Positions 53-32,239 of a stretch of DNA of 32,239 bases are shown piece after piece. The notes beneath the pieces are model-generated. The model made no database searches. It had not been told where the DNA came from and saw nothing but the letters and a program-made list of their open reading frames with translations. How positions within the stretch are numbered: position 1 is the first letter of the stretch; every line of letters begins with the position of its first letter. A program made the translations under genes and the position numbers. Source of the DNA: Clostridia bacterium (lineage in GTDB: Bacteria > Bacillota > Clostridia > UMGS1883); assembly GCA_030527235.1 (NCBI GenBank), contig JAUNBL010000023.1, positions 1-32,239 of the forward strand, given 5' to 3'.

Positions 53-1291
53 ATGAACGAATATGCCAAACTCATCCTTGAGCTTCTTTCGCCTCAGCTT
101 CGCGGCAGGAAGCCGCATGTCAATATACCGGACTCTATTTCCCGGGAAAAGCTTTACCATGACAGCGTCGCCCACCAAGTACAGTTTCTCATATGCGACG
201 CACTGCTTAAAATGCCCTCTCAGCTTGAGGCGGACTTTGCGGACGCACTAAACGAGATATTGATGACTGCCGTTGTCCGAGAAACACAGCGTGAGCATGA
301 GATTTCCCATGTTATAAACGCTTTGGCTGCCGAAAACATAGACGTAGTTGCTTTCAAAGGCGCCTACCTGAAATTTCTCTATCCGCTCTCCCAATACAGA
401 ATTATGGGAGATGTTGACCTTTTCCTGACTGATATATCACAAATCGGGAATGCCTGCGCGCTTTTTGAAAGGCTCGGCTACACTTGGAGCAAGGAAGAGG
501 GCGAAACATACTGTTTCCGCCGCGGAGATGACATTCCGATTGATTTGCACACATACGTAAAATTTGTTGAGGAAGGGCATTTCTTTGACGAAAAAAACCA
601 ACGCATTCTCGGAGAGGTATTTCGTCTTTCCGAGTGCATAACCGAAGATGTGGACGGCTGCCGCATGAAGCTGTTTTCACATACTGACCACTTTGCTCAT
701 CTTTTTTCTCATATGGCTTGCCATATAACACTCGGTGGATTCGGGTTTCGCCAGCTTTGCGACGTAGTTGTGTACGTGCTGACGCGGGGAGACCGTATTG
801 ATTACTCTCGCTTCTGGCATATCTGTAAACTAACCGGGTACACTACCTTTGCGGCAAACATCCTGTATGTATGCCGCGACTATCTCGCGCTCGATACCGA
901 TGAAATTTTCGGAGCGCTCAACTCCAGCCCGCCCAATTTTTCCGAAGCGCTTATAGACGACATGTATGAGAACGGCGTATTCGGATACAAAAGCCGCGAA
1001 AAGCTTCTTATCAATAAAGCTGCGGGAGGAGCGGTTCGCGCGAATAAAGAAAAAGGCTCGCGTTTCGGAGCCGTTTCCGCCATGCTACATGCCGCTTTTC
1101 CTCTTTACATTAAACAGGAAAAATACGCCTATGCGATGCACCATCGCATTCTCCTGCCTGTCGCCTGGGCGCATCGGCTCATAGATTTTGTTTTCGGCAG
1201 GATGCGGCCATCCGATTTTAAGACGCTTATCGAACAAAAAAATTCTGTGGACAAACGGCTGAAACTTCTTGCCGATTTGGAACTGTATTAG
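53..1291 (+). CDS. Nucleotidyltransferase family protein (PF14907-like, uncharacterised)
   Basis: This protein of about 412 residues carries the minimal nucleotidyltransferase pattern. Residues 102-103 are KG, R-x-MGDVDLF follows at about 116-124 with the metal-binding pair D120/D122, and a third carboxylate lies in IDLH at about D164. This fits the PF14907 group, whose substrates are mostly unknown. The ATG at 53 is preferred because AAAGGA lies 12 bases upstream. A TTG at 23 and an ATG at 41 are in frame, and the frame stays open to the window edge, so a longer N-terminus cannot be excluded. Its TAG stop overlaps the AGGAGGG ribosome-binding site of the next gene, so it is probably cotranscribed with the SbcD/SbcC-like pair. 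The family assignment is from motifs; the biological role is not known. Confidence 0.7.
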   Translation: MNEYAKLILELLSPQLRGRKPHVNIPDSISREKLYHDSVAHQVQFLICDALLKMPSQLEADFADALNEILMTAVVRETQREHEISHVINALAAENIDVVAFKGAYLKFLYPLSQYRIMGDVDLFLTDISQIGNACALFERLGYTWSKEEGETYCFRRGDDIPIDLHTYVKFVEEGHFFDEKNQRILGEVFRLSECITEDVDGCRMKLFSHTDHFAHLFSHMACHITLGGFGFRQLCDVVVYVLTRGDRIDYSRFWHICKLTGYTTFAANILYVCRDYLALDTDEIFGALNSSPPNFSEALIDDMYENGVFGYKSREKLLINKAAGGAVRANKEKGSRFGAVSAMLHAAFPLYIKQEKYAYAMHHRILLPVAWAHRLIDFVFGRMRPSDFKTLIEQKNSVDKRLKLLADLELY

Positions 1292-1301
1292 GAGGGTACA
1301 T

Positions 1302-2372
1302 ATGCTTATATTTCACTGCGGGGACATTCATCTTGACGCGCCATTTGCCGCACTCTCCCGCGATAAAGCTCAAATACGAAAGAACGAGGTTCGCTCAAGC
1401 TTCGCCTCAATTATAAGCGCCGCGCTCGAAAAGAAAGCCGATGTAATGCTTATCGCTGGGGATTTATTTGATTCACCGACGCCTTCAAAGAGCGCTATCG
1501 ACTTTGTAACCACTCAGCTCAATCGTCTCTCTCCAATGCCCGTCTTTATTTCCGCAGGCAATCATGACTACCTTACATATGGTACATACTGCGGGTGTGT
1601 GGAGCTCGGCGAGCATGTTCACGTTTTCAAAGATGCATTGGAAAATGTCCGCCTTGACACGCTTAAACTGAACATATACGGCGCATCATTTACCTCCGCT
1701 GAATCGAATTGCCTCATAGAAAATTTCAAGGCGGAAAATGCAGACGGCATAAACATCCTTTGTATTCATGCCGATATTACCGCACAAAGCCGATATAACC
1801 CGGTTTCATTACCGCAGTTAACCGAATGCGGCATTAATTACGCTGCGCTCGGACATCTTCATACTTCCTCTCTGCAGAAGGTTAACGGCATGCTTATTGC
1901 CTATTGCGGAACACCGAATCCTCATGGATTTGACGAAGCCGGCGCCAAAGGCTACATCGAAGTGAGAATTGACGGCAACGCTATGGACGCCGCTTTTTTT
2001 GAAATTCCCTCACGCCGCTACATTGTGACCGAGATGGATGTCTCGCCTTTTTGCGATAACGATTCTCTTATTAATGCACTCTCGAACATCATAAACAGCA
2101 GAGACTTGTATAAAATAGTTTTTGCGGGGACACTCAGAAACGGCTTTGAAATCAGCGTTCCTTATATTTTGTCGAGACTGGATTACGCATTTTTTGTGAA
2201 AGCAGAGGACAAAACCCGTATTGAGATTGACGTTGAAGCCCTGCTTGCCGAGGAAACACTGCGCGGCACGTTCGCACGCGCTTTGAAAGAAGATATTCAG
2301 GATAACGACACTCTTTTTTACGAAGCTCTTCGCATCGGCTTGGACGCGCTTGCCGGAAGGGAGACGTTCTGA
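1302..2372 (+). CDS. SbcD/YhaO-like metallophosphoesterase (DNA repair exonuclease family)
   Basis: A calcineurin-like phosphoesterase of about 356 residues. All the dinuclear metal motifs are visible in order: GDIH (D8, H10), GDLFD (D54), GNHD (86-89), a His at about 156 in CIHAD, and GHLH (184-187). This is the arrangement of Mre11/SbcD and Bacillus YhaO. The chosen start is the ATG at 1302, eight bases after AGGAGGG; an in-frame ATG at 1269 lies inside the preceding gene and lacks such a site. The stop is one base before the start of the SbcC-like ATPase, which argues for a two-subunit nuclease-ATPase complex working on DNA ends or structures. That role is inferred from the family. Confidence 0.85.
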   Translation: MLIFHCGDIHLDAPFAALSRDKAQIRKNEVRSSFASIISAALEKKADVMLIAGDLFDSPTPSKSAIDFVTTQLNRLSPMPVFISAGNHDYLTYGTYCGCVELGEHVHVFKDALENVRLDTLKLNIYGASFTSAESNCLIENFKAENADGINILCIHADITAQSRYNPVSLPQLTECGINYAALGHLHTSSLQKVNGMLIAYCGTPNPHGFDEAGAKGYIEVRIDGNAMDAAFFEIPSRRYIVTEMDVSPFCDNDSLINALSNIINSRDLYKIVFAGTLRNGFEISVPYILSRLDYAFFVKAEDKTRIEIDVEALLAEETLRGTFARALKEDIQDNDTLFYEALRIGLDALAGRETF

Positions 2373-2373
2373 A

Positions 2374-4260
2374 ATGAAACTCAAAAAACTTGTAATGAAA
2401 AATTACGGCAAATTCACCGACAAAACCATCGAGTTCTCCGATTCGCTCAATGTTGTACTCGGCGAAAACGAATCAGGCAAAAGCACCGCCCGCTCTTTTA
2501 TCCGTCAAATGCTTTACGGTTTCGGTTCCAAAGCTGACGGACGCGACATTTATCGCTCTTGGGGGACCGGCACGCTTGAAGGCGAATTGTATTTTTCTCA
2601 CCAAGGACGCGAATATTGCGTCAAACGCCGTGCCGGAAGCACAAAGGGACGCGACACTTGCGAGCTATTCGACCTCACCGGAGGAGAAACGCTTGACAAA
2701 AGTGCGTCAGACTTTATCGGTGTTTGCGAAGACACGTTCTGCAAGAGCGTCTTTATCGCACAAGACGCCACACTTTTTCACGGCGAAAGCGAAGAAATAG
2801 CCTCACGCCTCTCCAACCTCGCCCGATACGGTGACGAAAACGCGGGAGCGGACAAAGCAATTAAAATGATAGAAAAGCAGCAGACTTCTTTGCTTCACAA
2901 AAGAGGGCGCGGCGGCAAACTGGCTGAACTTGAAGACGAAATCCACCTGAAAAAACGCGTGCTGCGCGCAGCTGAGGAGCGAAGCGCGCTGCGCGCCGAA
3001 TCTCTTTTCGAAAGCCAAAGACTGAAAAGCGCTCTTGACGAACTTTATCAGAAACGCGAGGACCTTATCCGCATAGAAGAATCCGACCGGAAGCAAGCGC
3101 TTTGCAATCGGCTTTGCAAAGCAAAAGAGGAGCTTTTCCAAAGAGAAAAGGACTATACCGAACTTCAGGCGCAGATTGCACCGCTCAGCGCTTTTTCAGA
3201 TGTGAAAAGCGGGGAAATCTCCGAAATTGCTACCATTGATGCCTTGGTGGAAAGGCAAAAGACTTTACATGCCTCATTTCTGTCAAGGCTTATTACTTGC
3301 ATAGCGCTCTTAATAACCGCAGCAGCCTCTGTTTTTGCCGGTATTTTCATATCCTCAGCGCTTTTCATCCTTACGGCGGCAGCTTTTTTTTCCTGCGTTT
3401 TCGCTGCAGTTCTGGCTTTGAAAACCAAGAAGGATAAAGACAAAAATTTGATACAGTATGGACATGTGTGCGAAATTCTCAGTTCTTTCAACTGCAGCAA
3501 CGTACCAGAATTTACTGACAAGTTAAATACCTTTACACGTCTTAAAACTGAAGCGGAAAATTTATCAAATGCGCTCGATGCTTGCCGTGCGGAGTATGCG
3601 GCGGCTTCTGAATGCTGTTGCTGTGACAGCGCCGAGTACCAAGAGATACCGCTGAGACACGAAACTTCACGCGATGTAGATGCCGAAATATTTAAGATTA
3701 CACCAATTTACGAACAGGCAAAGGCGCGTCTTGAAGCGGAAACTGACGAAACGCCTGAGGATATAGCGGCTTCCATAAAACAGCTTGAAGATGAACACAA
3801 AGAATACTCCTCAAGGCTTTTAGCTCTTAATACGGCGCTTTCGGCGCTTGACAAGGCTCGCAGACAAATGGAGCACGAGTTCACACCGAGGCTTAACCGC
3901 GCTGCGTCTGAAATACTCGGAGCAATAACACACGGCCGACACGATGAAGTTCGCGTTACCGGCGCATTTGAGGCAAGCATTTTGGACGATATTCCGCGCG
4001 CTTTCAATCTCTATTCGTTTGGAACTGCACAACAGGTATATCTTGCGCTACGCCTTGCCTTGTCCGAACTGCTCTTTCCCAATGAAGATATGTTTATAGT
4101 TTTAGACGAACCATTCGCATACTACGACTCACGGCGTCAAAAGGCCGCTGAGGATATGCTGCTTGCTCTTTCAGAAAAACGGCAAATTATCATTTTCGTC
4201 TGCCGAGACAATATCGGCATTAAAAAAACGGCTTGTAATTATATTGACATAAACACGTGA
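2374..4260 (+). CDS. SbcC/YhaN-like AAA ATPase with central hydrophobic segments
   Basis: About 628 residues. Walker A GENESGKST lies at 30-38, an ABC-type signature region (YSFGTAQQVYLALR) near 547-560 and Walker B (FIVLDEPFA) near 574-582, the split-ATPase layout of SMC/Rad50/SbcC proteins. Between the lobes are charged, Glu/Lys/Arg-rich coiled-coil stretches. At about 305-350 there are two adjacent hydrophobic segments instead of a zinc hook, a feature of YhaN-type proteins, so the middle of the molecule may be membrane-anchored. A run of four consecutive cysteines occurs near residue 415. The start ATG follows the TGA of the metallophosphoesterase by one base and has GGAAGGGAG upstream; the two are clearly coupled. 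The gene ends on the promoter of the following operon. Confidence 0.85.
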   Translation: MKLKKLVMKNYGKFTDKTIEFSDSLNVVLGENESGKSTARSFIRQMLYGFGSKADGRDIYRSWGTGTLEGELYFSHQGREYCVKRRAGSTKGRDTCELFDLTGGETLDKSASDFIGVCEDTFCKSVFIAQDATLFHGESEEIASRLSNLARYGDENAGADKAIKMIEKQQTSLLHKRGRGGKLAELEDEIHLKKRVLRAAEERSALRAESLFESQRLKSALDELYQKREDLIRIEESDRKQALCNRLCKAKEELFQREKDYTELQAQIAPLSAFSDVKSGEISEIATIDALVERQKTLHASFLSRLITCIALLITAAASVFAGIFISSALFILTAAAFFSCVFAAVLALKTKKDKDKNLIQYGHVCEILSSFNCSNVPEFTDKLNTFTRLKTEAENLSNALDACRAEYAAASECCCCDSAEYQEIPLRHETSRDVDAEIFKITPIYEQAKARLEAETDETPEDIAASIKQLEDEHKEYSSRLLALNTALSALDKARRQMEHEFTPRLNRAASEILGAITHGRHDEVRVTGAFEASILDDIPRAFNLYSFGTAQQVYLALRLALSELLFPNEDMFIVLDEPFAYYDSRRQKAAEDMLLALSEKRQIIIFVCRDNIGIKKTACNYIDINT

Positions 4261-4739: not shown

Positions 4740-6341
4740 TTGTCTAGAACCATAAATGCAGCAGTATTTGCTAATATGATAGTTTCCGGCGCGAATAATC
4801 TCAACTCAAAACGCGGCGAGATAGACGCGCTTAACGTTTTTCCTGTACCCGACGGAGATACCGGAACCAATATGGCGATGACGTTTACCTCAGCGGCGCG
4901 CGAAATTGAGACAAATACCTACAGCACCGTAAGCGATGTTTCCGAGGCTGCGGCAAAGGCAACGCTCCGCGGGGCGAGAGGAAACAGCGGCGTAATTCTT
5001 TCTCAGATTTTCCGTGGGATTTCCAAGGGTTTGTCAGAGCTTTCAGACGCCACGGTACTCGATTTTGCAGCCGCGCTCCAGCGAGGCTGCGACACGGCAT
5101 ATCGTGCAGTTATGAAACCTACCGAAGGCACAATCCTGACTGTTATCCGAAAAATGGCAAAATGCGCTGTCGAGTTTGAAGGCGCAGAATTTGAGGACTT
5201 TTTTACCGCAGTTATAGCTACTGGCAACGAAACGCTTGACAAAACTCCCGATTTGTTGCCACAGCTTAAGCAAGCGGGTGTTGTTGATGCCGGCGGGAAA
5301 GGACTTGTCACTATTTTTGAAGGGTTTCTTCCCGCACTGTCGGGGCAGTCGGTTTCACTTGCAGAAATAGGCGCGCCTAAGATTGCCAGCACCGTTCAAA
5401 GCGTGCCCGCCGCCGAGGAGATTAAATTTGCCTATTGCACCGAATTCATAATCAACAAAAACGGCAACGGCCATAACGCATCAAATATGCGCCGTCTTAT
5501 TTCCCCCAAGGGCGACAGTATGCTCGTTATAGACGAGGATGATATTGTAAAGGTGCATATTCACACCAATCATCCAGGCTATGTGCTTGAGCAAGCCGTT
5601 AAGGTGGGCGAATTAGTGAATATAAAAATTGACAATATGCGTTTTCAGCACAACAACATTATCCAGTCGGCTCCGCGTGAAAAAAAGGCGCTCGGTATTG
5701 TATCTGTTGCGGCGGGCGAGGGTATTGAAAAAGCTTTTTGTGAGATGGGCGTTGACATTATTGTAAGCGGCGGCCAAACAATGAATCCATCTACCGAGGA
5801 CATTTTGCGGGCCGTGTCAGAACTTAACGCCGACAACGCTTTAGTGCTGCCAAATAATAAAAACATTATTCTCGCGGCACAGCAGGCGCAAAAGATATCA
5901 AAAACTCCTATTGAGGTAGTGGAGTCAAGCACTATTCCTCAGGGGCTTTGTGCAATGATGTCCTTTTCGCCGCAAAAGGAGCTCAGTGAAAACGCCGTCT
6001 CAATGCGTAAATCACTTTCCAAAGTTAAAAGCGTCAGCGTGACTTACGCCGTACGCGATACAAAAATTGACGAAAAGGAAATTAAAAGCGGCGACTATCT
6101 GGGAATGCTTGACGGAAAGATTGTATCGGTAAATAAATCTGTCAAAAACTCAGCTCTTGAATCCGTTGCCGCTGCCGCCGATGATGATACGGAAATTATC
6201 ACTGTTTTTTACGGCTCCGATGTGACGGAGAAAGAAGCGTCCTCACTCGCAGCTGAGCTTGAAAAAGCGCATCCCGATTGTGATATATGCCTTAAATGCG
6301 GCGGTCAGCCGGTGTATTACTATATTATTTCTGTGGAATAG
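4740..6341 (+). CDS. fakA: DAK2-domain protein, fatty acid kinase FakA/YloV-like
   Basis: A 533-residue protein with an N-terminal DhaL/DAK2 ATP-binding domain. The metal and nucleotide motif NVFPVPDGDTGTNM lies at 32-45 and RGARGNSGVILSQ near 80-92, followed by a middle domain and a C-terminal DegV/DAK1-like region. This matches FakA, which phosphorylates fatty acids presented by FakB (DegV) proteins so that exogenous fatty acids can enter phospholipid synthesis. No FakB is in the window. Translation appears to start at a TTG with GAAGGGGG upstream, 23 bases after the Asp23 stop. The start choice and size agree with the family. The kinase role is known for Staphylococcus FakA and is transferred here by similarity and synteny. 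Confidence 0.85.
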   Translation: MSRTINAAVFANMIVSGANNLNSKRGEIDALNVFPVPDGDTGTNMAMTFTSAAREIETNTYSTVSDVSEAAAKATLRGARGNSGVILSQIFRGISKGLSELSDATVLDFAAALQRGCDTAYRAVMKPTEGTILTVIRKMAKCAVEFEGAEFEDFFTAVIATGNETLDKTPDLLPQLKQAGVVDAGGKGLVTIFEGFLPALSGQSVSLAEIGAPKIASTVQSVPAAEEIKFAYCTEFIINKNGNGHNASNMRRLISPKGDSMLVIDEDDIVKVHIHTNHPGYVLEQAVKVGELVNIKIDNMRFQHNNIIQSAPREKKALGIVSVAAGEGIEKAFCEMGVDIIVSGGQTMNPSTEDILRAVSELNADNALVLPNNKNIILAAQQAQKISKTPIEVVESSTIPQGLCAMMSFSPQKELSENAVSMRKSLSKVKSVSVTYAVRDTKIDEKEIKSGDYLGMLDGKIVSVNKSVKNSALESVAAAADDDTEIITVFYGSDVTEKEASSLAAELEKAHPDCDICLKCGGQPVYYYIISVE

Positions 6342-16592: not shown

Positions 16593-16625
16593 TTGGCGAT
16601 GAAACTATTAGGAGGAATTATAAAA

Positions 16626-18143
16626 ATGGATTTGAATTGCCAAACACTTCCGCTTGAATTCAATCGCCCCGGGTGCGGATGCTCGGAAACCTTCCGAGTT
16701 GACACCGACATCATAGTACCAGACACAAAGCCAGATATACTTCGCATATTGGACGTCTCTTCACATGCGTATATAGCGAAAAAGGACCTGCTCGCGGGAC
16801 ACGCCGTTATCAGCGGTGTTGTATGCTTTTCACTCATTTGTCTCGGAGACGACGGTGACAAAAGCGTGTTCGGAATATCCGGAAGCTGTGATTTTTCCCG
16901 CACGGTAGAGGGCGAGTTTATAAACACTGATGTCTCTGTGTGCGCGCGGATTGACGTTGTTTCAGACGGCTGTGAACTCATAAATTCACGCAAGGCGCTT
17001 CTCTTTGCTACACTGCAGCTTCGTCTGTCAGCCTCAAGCACAGACTCTCTTAATCCCATATGCGCCATAGAAGGTGCGCAAGTGATGACACAGCCCGTTA
17101 CATCAACTGTAAAACGTTTTTGCGAGGAGAAAAGCTTCACGGTTGAAGACACATCGGAATTGCCGGATTCCAAGAGCGCTGTATGCGACGTTTTATGCAA
17201 AAGCGTGCGGCTTGGAGAATGCGACTATAAAAGCGTGCAAAACAAACTCATTTTGAGAGGAAATCTCTTTGCGTCAATACTTTACACCAGTGAAAGTATG
17301 ATAGAAAGCGCAGAATTTGAGCTTCCGTTTACGGAAATTCTCGACCTGCCCGGACTGAATCCCGAAACCGGAATAATGCTTGACGCATGTGTCGGAAACT
17401 ACGATATCGGCATTGACAACGATACCAGCGGTATACGCCGCATGGTAAATATCTCTGCAAATGTAACGGTCAACATCTCCGGCAGCGAGTGTATCTCTAT
17501 GAGCGTTGTGACAGACGCATTTTTCCCGCGCAAAAATATGCAGTGCGAAAAACGCGCGCTAAAGCTTAATTCCATCTGTGCCACGCGCTGTGACGAAATA
17601 TACATCAAGGAAACACTTTCGCCGCGTGAGGCATCCACCATCGAAAAGGTATGCTCCGTAACAGGAAACGCGCGGATTGACGAAACACACTGGAGCGGTG
17701 ATTCTCTTAAAATAAGAGGAACTGTTCACGCATCCATGCTCTACATTTCGCTCGACGGACCGGATTGCGTTTCAGTCGATATTCCCTTTGAGCACAGCCT
17801 TGAAGTGCCAGAGTTTTCCGGAGGCGAAGTCTGCGCTGCAGCCTCGCTTCTTCGCATGAGCTACACTATTACTTCTGCAGTAGCCGTTGAGGTTCGTGCT
17901 GCGCCTAAGCTGTGCGTAAGCTGCGAAAAAAGCGCGGAATTAACACTTGTCACCTCTGCGGTTCTGGACGATTCGCCGATGCCTCCGCGACCGAGCGTTC
18001 TCATCACTTTTGCGGAAGAGGATGACACGCTCTGGAACGTGGCAAAGCATTACAATGTGGCTATTGACGAGCTCTGCGCCGCAAATGCAATCGAAAACAC
18101 TGCCGCGCTTAAAAAAGGCGAAAAACTAATTATTCCTACATAA
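16626..18143 (+). CDS. SPOCS (DUF3794) and LysM domain spore-envelope protein
   Basis: About 505 residues. It appears to hold three beta-rich SPOCS/DUF3794-type repeats: one from about 30, a second around 180-330 (TELPFTEILDLPG region), and a third around 345-430 (PFEHSLEVPEFSGG). The last 45 residues form a LysM peptidoglycan-binding domain (EEDDTLWNVAKHYNVAIDEL, ending KKGEKLIIP). There is no signal peptide, consistent with action from the mother cell on the forespore. Relatives occur in spore-forming Clostridia as coat or cortex-associated proteins. AGGAGG lies ten bases before the ATG at 16626; an upstream ATG at 16593 is less well placed. Single-gene unit closed by a hairpin. Confidence 0.85.
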   Translation: MDLNCQTLPLEFNRPGCGCSETFRVDTDIIVPDTKPDILRILDVSSHAYIAKKDLLAGHAVISGVVCFSLICLGDDGDKSVFGISGSCDFSRTVEGEFINTDVSVCARIDVVSDGCELINSRKALLFATLQLRLSASSTDSLNPICAIEGAQVMTQPVTSTVKRFCEEKSFTVEDTSELPDSKSAVCDVLCKSVRLGECDYKSVQNKLILRGNLFASILYTSESMIESAEFELPFTEILDLPGLNPETGIMLDACVGNYDIGIDNDTSGIRRMVNISANVTVNISGSECISMSVVTDAFFPRKNMQCEKRALKLNSICATRCDEIYIKETLSPREASTIEKVCSVTGNARIDETHWSGDSLKIRGTVHASMLYISLDGPDCVSVDIPFEHSLEVPEFSGGEVCAAASLLRMSYTITSAVAVEVRAAPKLCVSCEKSAELTLVTSAVLDDSPMPPRPSVLITFAEEDDTLWNVAKHYNVAIDELCAANAIENTAALKKGEKLIIPT

Positions 18144-19603: not shown

Positions 19604-20932
19604 TCATGTCTGCGCCAAAAGCGCCGCCGCCGCGATTGCACATTCAACCCTTTTCTTCTCCATCTCACAGGCAATGGAATACGGTTTTTCAATATCACCG
19701 TTCATCTGATATGCGTTTGCGGCACATCCGCCGCTGCAATAAAAACGCGCCCAGCATTCGGAGCATCCCTTCTTTGTGTATATATTGCTCCTCAAGAATT
19801 TTTCACGTACCGCGCTGTTAGTTATGCCTCTAAACACATCACCCATCTTAAACGATTTATCCGAAACAAACTGGTGGCACGGATATATGTCCCCATTGGG
19901 CGTCACTGCGGCGTACTCATGTCCGCTGCCGCACCCCGCTAAGCGCTTGTATGCGCACGGTCCCTGTTCAAAATCTATCATGAAGTGGAAAAAATTATAG
20001 AATCCGCCTTCTTTACGTGTTTTCACTAAATCAAGAGCGAGCTGTTCGTACTGCTTGAAAATTTCCGGCAAATCACTTTCACAAAGCGCATAGCTCTCAT
20101 TTGCCTTCGCCACAACAGGCTCCACGCTTATTTGTTCAAACCCGAGCGAGTGTATATGCTTAACGTCATTCAAAAAGTCAAGATTGTCGCGCGTGAAAGT
20201 ACCGCGAACATAATAACTCTTTTCTCCGCGCCCCTTCACAAGCTTTTGGAACTTCGGCACTACCGCGTCATAGCTGCCGCTCCCGTCCAGGCGCACACGC
20301 ACACTATCGTGCACCTCTTTTCTTCCGTCAAGAGAGAGCACCACGTTAGACATGTTTTCATTTATATACTCAATCTTTTTATCGTCAAGCAACATGCCAT
20401 TCGTTGTAATTGTAAAACGGAATTCCTTGTCGTGCTCGCGCCCTTGCTCTTTTGCATAATTTGTAATTTCACGCACTGTATCAAAATTCATCAGCGGCTC
20501 GCCGCCGAAATAATCTATTTCAATATTCCGGCGGTTTTTGCTTTCCTTGATAACAAAGTCTATCGCCGCCTTGCCTACCTTTGCGCTCATAAGTTCCCGC
20601 TTACCCATATACTCTCCGCCGTGCGCAAAGCAATACCTACAGCGCAGGTTGCAATCGTGCGCGATGTGAAGGCACAGCGCTTTTATAACGCTTTGTTTTT
20701 CCCAGTGGTTCGCTATTTCCCTGTACACATCGGGAGTAAACAGCTCTCCTCTGTCTTTGAGCATCAAAAGTTCAGCTTCAGCCTCGCTCATCTGAGCGCC
20801 GACATATTCCCCGCTCTCGGTGAAATTGTCAAGCGCGTTATACGCCGTTTCTGAAAGCACATGTACCGCGCCGCTCGCAATGTCCGCCACACAAAAGATT
20901 CCGAGTACGCTAAATTTATGTATTCTGGGCAA
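19604..20932 (-). CDS. scfB: SCIFF peptide maturase, radical SAM/SPASM thioether-forming enzyme
   Basis: A 442-residue radical SAM enzyme. Residues 1-80 fit a peptide-recognition (RRE-like) segment, starting RIHKFSVLGIFCVADIASG. The SAM cluster motif CNLRCRYC contains C94, C98 and C101, with GGEP at 143-146. A SPASM/twitch region carries auxiliary-cluster cysteines at about 326, 334, 352, 390, 393, 399, 403 and 422. This matches the SCIFF maturase (ScfB/CteB), which joins a Cys sulphur to a Thr carbon in the precursor. The start is a TTG, ten bases after GGAGG; an ATG just upstream runs straight into TAA. The 48-residue substrate gene is encoded 53 bases upstream. Confidence 0.95.
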   Translation of the reverse strand: MPRIHKFSVLGIFCVADIASGAVHVLSETAYNALDNFTESGEYVGAQMSEAEAELLMLKDRGELFTPDVYREIANHWEKQSVIKALCLHIAHDCNLRCRYCFAHGGEYMGKRELMSAKVGKAAIDFVIKESKNRRNIEIDYFGGEPLMNFDTVREITNYAKEQGREHDKEFRFTITTNGMLLDDKKIEYINENMSNVVLSLDGRKEVHDSVRVRLDGSGSYDAVVPKFQKLVKGRGEKSYYVRGTFTRDNLDFLNDVKHIHSLGFEQISVEPVVAKANESYALCESDLPEIFKQYEQLALDLVKTRKEGGFYNFFHFMIDFEQGPCAYKRLAGCGSGHEYAAVTPNGDIYPCHQFVSDKSFKMGDVFRGITNSAVREKFLRSNIYTKKGCSECWARFYCSGGCAANAYQMNGDIEKPYSIACEMEKKRVECAIAAAALLAQT

Positions 20933-20949
20933 TTATATCATTCCTCCGC

Positions 20950-20974
20950 AAAAAAGGCTGCCTCATGGGCAGCC
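20950..20974 (-). terminator. Intercistronic hairpin with U-tract between scfA and scfB
   Basis: On the minus strand GGCTGCC-CATGA-GGCAGCC is followed by six T residues. It lies eleven bases after the precursor stop and just before the scfB ribosome-binding site. It looks like a partial terminator or attenuator that would keep maturase transcripts below precursor transcripts. Confidence 0.7.
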
Positions 20975-20985
20975 CTCGCATATTT

Positions 20986-21132
20986 TCATCTGTTTTTATT
21001 CTCGCACTTTTGGTTTGCTACAGTACACGACGTTTTGCACGCGCTCTGACAAGAGGTTTGGCACTCGCCGCAACCGCCTTTTTTAACAGATTTAGTAAGA
21101 CTTGCACTTGTAAGCGTCTTCACATGCTTCAT
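20986..21132 (-). CDS. scfA: SCIFF precursor peptide (six-cysteine ribosomal peptide)
   Basis: A 48-residue peptide. The leader MKHVKTLTSASLTKSVKKGG is followed by a core with exactly six cysteines at 21, 24, 28, 32, 36 and 43 (pattern C-x2-C-x3-C-x3-C-x3-C-x6-C). This is the SCIFF (six cysteines in forty-five residues) family, nearly universal in Clostridia. Cys32 and Thr37 sit at the positions reported to be joined by a thioether in the Clostridium thermocellum peptide. AAAGGAGGG precedes the ATG and a consensus promoter lies about 36 bases upstream of it. The maturase gene follows. The biological function of the modified peptide remains unknown. Confidence 0.95.
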   Translation of the reverse strand: MKHVKTLTSASLTKSVKKGGCGECQTSCQSACKTSCTVANQKCENKNR

Positions 21133-21167
21133 ACCACAAAGCCCTCCTTTATTACATCATTGTATTA

Positions 21168-21196
21168 AATATACCACGCGCCGCTCGTGTTGTCAA
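21168..21196 (-). promoter_or_regulatory. Sigma-A-type promoter for the SCIFF precursor
   Basis: On the minus strand TTGACA (21196-21191) and TATATT (21173-21168) are 17 bases apart, giving the peptide gene its own transcription start independent of the upstream membrane-protein gene. Confidence 0.7.
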
Positions 21197-21208
21197 CACA
21201 TTTTTACG

Positions 21209-21613
21209 CTATTTTTCGCGCCGCAGATTAATGCCGACTATTCCTCCCGCACCACCGGAAATCAGTCCGTAGAGTACGCCGAGAAGCGTATGTATATTTA
21301 TATCTATCCCGTCATAAATCAGAAAACCTGCGCTGTAAAGCATAAGCATATAGAGCGCACCTGCGGCAGCGCCGTAAAGGTACCCAAAACGCCGGCTCCT
21401 CATTGAACAAAGCATACCCGCAAGCGCAATCGAGATATAATTTACCGCTCGTACCGATATGGAAACATACTTTTCATCAATCGGCGAATAGCAAAACACC
21501 ACCGCCAGCAAGGCAAGCAAAACTACCGCAAAGAGAAACGCCAGCAAAATATTCTTCAAGCAGCGCTTTATCCCAAGCGCGCTTTCCTTACGCGCCTCGT
21601 CTATTTTCATCAT
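21209..21613 (-). CDS. TIGR04086-type small membrane protein
   Basis: About 134 residues with four hydrophobic segments, near 21-42, 52-70, 76-95 and 104-128. It has a charged N-terminus (MMKIDEARKESALGIKR) and ends NLRREK. It fits the TIGR04086 family, small clostridial integral membrane proteins that, as I recall, are commonly encoded beside the SCIFF genes; the position here agrees. Function is unknown. The ATG at 21613 follows GGAGG by eight bases; a second ATG is immediately next. The ribosome-binding site lies inside the 3' arm of the upstream fba terminator hairpin. Confidence 0.8.
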   Translation of the reverse strand: MMKIDEARKESALGIKRCLKNILLAFLFAVVLLALLAVVFCYSPIDEKYVSISVRAVNYISIALAGMLCSMRSRRFGYLYGAAAGALYMLMLYSAGFLIYDGIDINIHTLLGVLYGLISGGAGGIVGINLRREK

Positions 21614-21617
21614 CTCA

Positions 21618-21662
21618 AAAACCTCCGAACACGCTTTTTGGTAAAGCATATTCGGAGGTTTT
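21618..21662 (-). terminator. fba terminator hairpin that contains the next gene's ribosome-binding site
   Basis: On the minus strand AAAACCTCCGAA pairs perfectly (12 bp) with TTCGGAGGTTTT around an inner GCTTT/AAAGC stem, eight bases after the fba stop. The U-run of the hairpin is short. The GGAGG in the 3' arm is the Shine-Dalgarno sequence of the TIGR04086-type gene. Confidence 0.75.
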
Positions 21663-30329: not shown

Positions 30330-32239
30330 TCAGCCTCTCATCGTACTTTCACTAACTTCACAGCAATCTTGCCCGCTTCGCGTCAATCTTTGATACCTCT
30401 CCATCAAATCAGCCACGCAGCTTGCTTCAGTCGTGTCCTTAATAGAATAGCCGTAGGCCTGCATAACGGCGCGGTCGTTATCCCTATGCGTTTTGAGCAA
30501 TTCCGGCGGCATGGTAAGCGGGTCGTAGAGGTCGGCAAGACTGCTGTCCGTGAAAAGCTCGCGGACATCCAAAATGGTCTGTGCGGTCCGCTCGATTTTC
30601 GCCTTCTGTTCATCGGTAGGTTCAGGCCACGGGAAGTTGTTGTAGACGATATCTTTAGAATAGCGATAATCACTTTTTAATCTGCCGCAGACCGTCCGCA
30701 TCCAAGCGTTATGAACATTTGACGTAAGAACGCCAAAATTATATAAAGTCGCTTTCGGAATCAGGAAAAGCAAATCGCTGGCAACAGTTGTTGCTGGCAA
30801 AAAACCGATAGGAATATATCTGCGCCGTTCAGAAGATACTTTCGGCACGGCAATATACTGTGTATCTGGCTGTGCAATTTGGCAAAACAGCATTGGTGTA
30901 TCTGCAAATTTTCTTGTTGCAGCGGCAACACTGTTTGCACGGAACTCTCTAACAGCCTCAATTCGCTTAACGACCGTGGGACATTGCTTAACTTCGCTTG
31001 GGTTAGCGCCTTGAAGCCACAAACACCAACGAGACTTTTTGTTAATGAACTCATATGAGCCTATGTAGGGACGTATCCACTTTTCAGCTAATGGTTCAGC
31101 CTTTAGTAAGTCCTCGCGCTCCTCATCGGAAAGGACAAAGCCGCCGCCATCTCTCGGCATACTTCCAAAGCGCATGGCAGGCACATCACATAGAGGCGCT
31201 GAATGGCTTTCTATAAAAACATTCGGTGCATCAGCAAGATAAGAGTTAATGTTTTTTACTTTTTTTACTTTGTGTTCACTATCGTCTGTGAAGATTTTTT
31301 TGTTATCAGTATCAAACAAAGAGAATCCCACGATGACGCAATGTACCGCAGCTTTTCCCTTTGCCTCATTGCTCCAGACAAAAGAGTGGTATGCAAAATG
31401 AATTACAAGCCCATCGTCAAACAGCGGTTTCCAAAGCGTAACCGCCTGCCGTCCTTGCACGATAGAATTTGTTGACACAAAAGCTGTCTTAATCTGTGTG
31501 TTTTCCATATAGGAAACAGCCTTCCTATACCAAGCAGATACATAATCCAACTCACCAACGCCTTTTGTATCTTCAAACACTTCAATCATATCAGACTTTT
31601 GTTCACGGCTCATCATCATGCCGCCCACAAACGGCGGATTGCCGAGGATATAGGAAAGCTCCCGCTTTGGAACGACCTCCTCCCAGTCTATCCGCAGCGC
31701 ATTGCCATGCACAATTGTCGCGCTCTGCGTCAGCGGCAGACGGGCATAGTACATCCCGAACTGCTCGGCGGCACGGGTGTTCATCTGGTGGTCCATCAGC
31801 CACATACCTACCTGCGCAATCTGACATGGGAAATCCTCGTACTCAATGCCGTAAAACTGCGCCACATTGACCTTGAGCAGCGTAGAAATATCCATAATAA
31901 GCTGATTGGTGTTGACCTTCATTTTCAATATTTCAAGTTCCAGCGCTCGCAGCTCCCGGTAGGTGATGATAAGGAAATTGCCGCAGCCGCAGGCCGGGTC
32001 GAGAAACTTGAGGTCTGCAATTTTATCATGGAAGGAATCGAGCAGCGCGGGAGTGGTCTTGACGCGCTCAAATTCCGCCCAAAGCTCATCCATGAACAGC
32101 GGGTTAATCAGCTTCAAAATGTTTTCTTCGCTTGTATAGTGCGCGCCCAGCTCACGGCGCTGGTTTTTATCCATGACTCCTTGGAACATAGCGCCGAAAA
32201 TAGCGGGGGAAATCTTGTTCCAGTCAAAATTGCAGCAGT
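30330..32239 (-). CDS. MmeI-like (type IIL) DNA methyltransferase, N-terminus outside window
   Basis: The gene is cut by the window edge. An ATG at 32189 is internal: the frame continues upstream without a stop, and its translation (DWNKISPAIFGAMFQGVMD) fits the family. Visible are GAHYTSEENILK (motif X region), LDPACGCGNFLI (SAM motif I, about 63-74 counted from that ATG), NPPFVGG (adenine N6 catalytic motif, 184-190), a central target-recognition region, and a C-terminal NNFPWPEP segment. About 635 residues are seen against roughly 920 for MmeI, so the nuclease and helical spacer domains, if present, are outside. It could be a full restriction-modification enzyme or a methyltransferase alone. 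The stop is 87 bases from the divergently placed promoter region of tagA. Confidence 0.85.
   Translation of the reverse strand, partial: CCNFDWNKISPAIFGAMFQGVMDKNQRRELGAHYTSEENILKLINPLFMDELWAEFERVKTTPALLDSFHDKIADLKFLDPACGCGNFLIITYRELRALELEILKMKVNTNQLIMDISTLLKVNVAQFYGIEYEDFPCQIAQVGMWLMDHQMNTRAAEQFGMYYARLPLTQSATIVHGNALRIDWEEVVPKRELSYILGNPPFVGGMMMSREQKSDMIEVFEDTKGVGELDYVSAWYRKAVSYMENTQIKTAFVSTNSIVQGRQAVTLWKPLFDDGLVIHFAYHSFVWSNEAKGKAAVHCVIVGFSLFDTDNKKIFTDDSEHKVKKVKNINSYLADAPNVFIESHSAPLCDVPAMRFGSMPRDGGGFVLSDEEREDLLKAEPLAEKWIRPYIGSYEFINKKSRWCLWLQGANPSEVKQCPTVVKRIEAVREFRANSVAAATRKFADTPMLFCQIAQPDTQYIAVPKVSSERRRYIPIGFLPATTVASDLLFLIPKATLYNFGVLTSNVHNAWMRTVCGRLKSDYRYSKDIVYNNFPWPEPTDEQKAKIERTAQTILDVRELFTDSSLADLYDPLTMPPELLKTHRDNDRAVMQAYGYSIKDTTEASCVADLMERYQRLTRSGQDCCEVSESTMRG

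Follow-up and report, generated by a model that had tools for sequence, protein, structure and literature searches.

A SCIFF ranthipeptide precursor and maturase pair in a Clostridia bacterium, with a recurrent intergenic hairpin and a likely Cys32-Thr34 cross-link

The minus strand of the window (the whole 32,239-nt stretch of DNA analysed, contig JAUNBL010000023.1 of a Clostridia bacterium) carries a short gene for a cysteine-rich peptide, scfA, followed directly by a gene for a radical SAM enzyme, scfB. From 5' to 3' on that strand, the locus consists of the following features.

21209 to 21649, minus strand: small membrane protein of the TIGR04086/DUF3792 family, 5' neighbour of scfA (matches to the family models)
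21168 to 21196, minus strand: promoter-like site, TTGACA-17-TATATT with TG ahead of the -10 element (a sigma-70-type consensus match only)
21142 to 21147, minus strand: ribosome-binding site GGAGGG, 9 nt 5' of the scfA ATG (read from the sequence)
20986 to 21132, minus strand: scfA, SCIFF precursor peptide of 48 aa (TIGR03973 and PF13165 matches)
20947 to 20975 with flanks, minus strand: terminator-like hairpin and T run, GGCTGCC-CATGA-GGCAGCC-TTTTTT (our own detector, and folding)
19604 to 20932, minus strand: scfB, radical SAM/SPASM SCIFF maturase of 442 aa with a TTG start (TIGR03974, PF04055 and PF13186 matches)

The 147-nt scfA frame encodes MKHVKTLTSASLTKSVKKGGCGECQTSCQSACKTSCTVANQKCENKNR, followed by a stop codon. 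Its cysteines lie at positions 21, 24, 28, 32, 36 and 43 (C-x2-C-x3-C-x3-C-x3-C-x6-C), and the peptide contains Cys32 as thioether donor with Thr34 and Thr37 as candidate acceptors. The original prediction had described this frame with its cysteine spacing and Thr37, a GGAGGG site and a consensus promoter, and all of these are present: GGAGGG occupies 21147-21142, and the promoter-like site (21196-21168) matches 11 of 12 consensus bases where the promoter scan leads one to expect 0.6 such sites in shuffled sequence. The same prediction called the gene overlooked and placed it below common gene-calling cut-offs. The latter is doubtful, as 48 codons exceed the usual limit; the default minimum gene length of Prodigal is 90 nt. 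SCIFF peptides are easily missed by annotation, yet are readily recognised with TIGR03973, and every SCIFF precursor is expected to have an accompanying maturase (2017 paper, PMC5300114).

Both SCIFF models recognise the peptide, as had been anticipated, with scores far past their cut-offs (TIGR03973, 81.9 bits against 50, E = 2.2e-23; PF13165, 84 bits against 27, E = 6.5e-24). The SCIFF-type maturase said to lie directly 3' on the same strand is also found. After a gap of 53 nt, with GGAGG at 20947-20943 read from the sequence 5' of its TTG start, scfB encodes a protein with radical SAM (PF04055) and SPASM (PF13186) domains that scores 651.9 bits against TIGR03974 (cut-off 425). Its closest solved structures are 5WGG and 5WHY (E 1.1e-176); the alignment spans 2-434 and keeps the SPASM cysteines and the CNLRCRYC motif in register. 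We take these structures to be the SCIFF maturase CteB, although the database entry itself reads 'Radical SAM domain protein'. Two other assignments of the enzyme were rejected: as an orphan 'not_ScfB' maturase (NF040492) it scores 570 bits where 855 are required, and the locus does contain a SCIFF precursor; as a PapB-type enzyme (NF047865) it scores 294.9 bits, under the cut-off of 340. The source genome (2.09 Mb, 100 contigs, 82% complete) contains a single SCIFF gene, no second copy being found in that assembly, and a single maturase that passes the cut-off. It is very probable, judging from these matches, that scfA and scfB form a SCIFF ranthipeptide precursor-maturase pair, in identity and in kind of chemistry.

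Elsewhere in the window, two adjoining plus-strand frames (1269-4260) show weak SbcD/Mre11-like and Rad50-like matches that fall under the family cut-offs. Long frames at 16593-18143 (plus strand, 516 aa) and 30330-32189 (minus strand, 619 aa) have no NCBIfam match at E 1e-10.

SCIFF was identified in 65 of 79 related genomes, and a degenerate DNA pattern search found its core in 318 of 391 genomes of the class. Two genomes of the same family (G002 and G003) yielded neither SCIFF nor maturase. The comparisons below use 71 orientable loci, comprising loci with a SCIFF match, loci with a maturase match and the window, in which a few contigs are counted twice. A maturase-like ORF lies 3' of SCIFF in 64 of these, and is not adjacent in two (L034 and L042). 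These two Romboutsia loci keep the TIGR04086 neighbour, and their maturase starts ~3.1 kb (L034) or ~0.8 kb (L042) past the SCIFF core. In several genomes the SCIFF gene is unlinked and the maturase lies elsewhere; one such maturase (G046:C189:8637-9964) is read as two overlapping frames, from a frameshift or a sequencing error. No searched genome contains two separate SCIFF genes, and a fused double one occurs in G031. A single plus-strand frame in L102 (~4976-5270) encodes two complete tandem units, each with leader and core. There is no sign of plasmid mobility: the sole SCIFF match in the plasmid collection is a 2.6-Mb Acetoanaerobium record, which is probably a chromosome.

The precursor core is strongly conserved. 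All six cysteines and the block K33-T34-S35 are invariant in the 71 loci. Residue 34 is thus threonine in every one, and all 318 core-pattern genomes are retained when a threonine codon is required there. Residue 37 is threonine in 52 loci and glycine in 19 (L051, L055, L056, L063, L066, L070, L074-L076, L078, L083-L085, L087, L088, L090, L093, L096, L102). All 19 Gly37 loci have the maturase directly 3' of the precursor, and all fall within one maturase clade (SH-aLRT 100), consistent with a single change on the tree.

The two forms also differ in genomic context. A TIGR04086/DUF3792 gene is the same-strand neighbour in 34 of 52 Thr37-type loci and in none of the 19 Gly37-type loci, which makes its product a candidate SCIFF partner. 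Other same-strand neighbours of the Thr37 type are SecD/SecF (29), YajC (27), Tgt (22), QueA (18) and RecJ (9), and none of these families, like TIGR04086, is present in any of the 19 Gly37 loci. Conversely, an Orn/Lys/Arg decarboxylase-like gene follows the maturase in 16 of 19 Gly37 loci and in 0 of 52 Thr37 loci. The window locus is of the Thr37 type. It keeps TIGR04086 but not the Sec genes, in place of which it has a fructose-bisphosphate aldolase gene on its upstream side and one for glucose-6-phosphate isomerase on its downstream side. Both types occur within the family of the window (e.g. Thr37 in G004 and Gly37 in G009) and within family f3. This distribution, together with the lack of any genome with two separate SCIFF genes, suggests that one precursor-maturase pair may have been exchanged whole for another, a pattern that may reflect transfer, ancient paralogy or misbinned contigs.

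The Gly37 precursors bear on a disputed point of SCIFF chemistry. According to the reviews PMC8326336 and PMC8172795, the bond is a C-gamma (ranthipeptide) thioether whose acceptor has been given as either Thr37 or Thr34. The same sources relate that the bond of Tte1186a and CteA was first assigned in vitro as Cys32-Thr37, and that later co-expression of CteA with CteB in E. coli produced a C-gamma link between Cys32 and Thr34. Sactipeptide (C-alpha) chemistry was also considered, and is rejected on isotope evidence described in PMC8172795. The simplest reading is that all SCIFF peptides would carry a Cys32-Thr34 cross-link, and Thr34 is a likely acceptor in the window host. The invariance of Thr34 is by itself weak evidence for this, because the residue sits within a wholly invariant block (SCQSACKTSC). 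The case for Thr34 over Thr37 is thus one that draws mainly on the Gly37 precursors of the alignment: a glycine at position 37 offers no site for a C-gamma link, and in that clade Thr37 can therefore not be an obligatory acceptor. The Gly37 clade could, alternatively, have shifted its acceptor, with Thr37-type peptides still using Thr37.

The original prediction, like the in vitro studies of 2016-2017, placed the bond between Cys32 and Thr37 of the same SCIFF pair. Its more general element, a Cys-Thr thioether, stands, as the Cys32 donor and threonines are present and a non-alpha thioether is described for the orthologue CteA in PMC8326336 and PMC8172795. The specific bond seems rather unlikely. 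It agrees with the in vitro assignments and with the presence of Thr37 in scfA and 52 of 71 relatives, but glycine, which has no gamma carbon, occupies this position beside an intact adjoining maturase in 19 of 71 loci, Thr34 is never replaced in the 71 loci or the 318 core-pattern genomes, and the co-expression product reported in PMC8172795 was Cys32-Thr34. The natural Gly37 precursors beside intact maturases are ready substrates for testing the Cys32-Thr34 reading against Cys32-Thr37.

In the proposed maturation, ScfB would bind the scfA leader (residues 1 to ~20) and, through radical SAM chemistry and its SPASM clusters, would join the Cys32 sulfur to a nearby threonine at its gamma carbon with a loss of 2 Da, Thr34 being the more probable acceptor than Thr37. 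The mature product would most likely be a conserved peptide with a regulatory, not an antimicrobial, function. The original prediction had held that the role of the mature peptide was unknown in any clostridium. This is superseded for C. beijerinckii, in which disrupting the genes for the precursor and the radical SAM enzyme led to much lower expression of sporulation genes and to higher agr (Chen 2020, as cited in PMC8102284), a role also listed as quorum sensing in PMC8326336. By analogy, a regulatory role in the window host has perhaps an even chance of being correct. The literature covered yielded no SCIFF receptor and no in vivo mature structure. A bacteriocin-like antimicrobial is a very improbable alternative. 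Genome-mining papers often group ranthipeptides with bacteriocins (e.g. PMC13289728), but SCIFF is near-universal, single-copy and strongly conserved across the class, and many copies adjoin Sec translocon genes rather than immunity or exporter genes; the review PMC8326336 makes a like argument from SCIFF distribution.

In the scfA-scfB gap, the hairpin directly precedes the scfB GGAGG and folds at -18.4 kcal/mol (z -2.57). In 41 of 61 loci, among them the window, a terminator-like element was detected between the two genes; some of the loci are near-duplicates. The same detector gave an expectation of 0.5 from shuffles that preserved base composition only, and found one element in 122 stretches inside the maturase. 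A separate terminator scan of the window listed no terminator at the hairpin, probably because the stem extends into the T run by G-T and A-T pairing. An Rfam search of the window returned one tRNA only, and at the SCIFF operon it showed neither a riboswitch nor a leader RNA. We lean towards regarding the hairpin as a partial terminator. In this scheme scfA would be transcribed from its own promoter, the hairpin and T run just past it would halt most transcripts, and scfB would be expressed through read-through. The 53-nt gap leaves little room for an scfB promoter past the hairpin, so read-through likely sets a high ratio of precursor to enzyme. The hairpin thus probably makes the precursor exceed the enzyme, by a mechanism suggested by its position and structure, and its recurrence between precursor and maturase genes offers a simple, testable account of how precursor excess is set.

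These observations can be combined into a single proposal. Two SCIFF types, Thr37 with yajC, TIGR04086 and secDF, and Gly37 with its own maturase clade and often then an Orn/Lys/Arg decarboxylase-like gene, would replace each other between lineages; the Cys32-Thr34 link would be universal; and transcription reading through a conserved partial terminator would supply scfB. The proposal as a whole is about as likely as not.

Since SCIFF is near-universal among the relatives, scfA is one more orthologue: the prediction of a SCIFF gene is borne out, and the pair is an ordinary further member of a known family. That scfA is instead a fortuitous reading frame or a degenerate copy, as its short length might suggest, is improbable in the extreme, chance origin being excluded by the matches to the family models (E = 2.2e-23 and 6.5e-24), with all six cysteines kept and the promoter, ribosome-binding site and maturase intact. 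The only points of possible specialist use are the Gly37 clade and the conserved hairpin.

The SCIFF family has been known since 2011, and the window locus resembles its characterised members closely. The scfA peptide shares its length, six-cysteine spacing and SCQSACKTSCT core with the SCIFF/ScfA peptides CteA of Clostridium thermocellum and Tte1186a of Caldanaerobacter, whose genes likewise have the maturase adjoining; residues of the leader and C-terminal tail alone differ, and no difference is structural. The scfB product matches CteB (5WGG/5WHY) over its full length, including the SPASM cysteines and the CxxxCxxC motif of radical SAM enzymes, but has an N-terminal region ~10 residues shorter after residue 35 and a TTG start. 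The 'not_ScfB' orphan maturases (NF040492) are related to scfB in sequence, whereas scfB has a SCIFF precursor. Freyrasin (PapA/PapB) and other ranthipeptides are made by related radical SAM/SPASM enzymes and, like SCIFF, contain non-alpha thioethers; freyrasin differs from SCIFF in its Cys-x3-Asp repeats with C-beta links.
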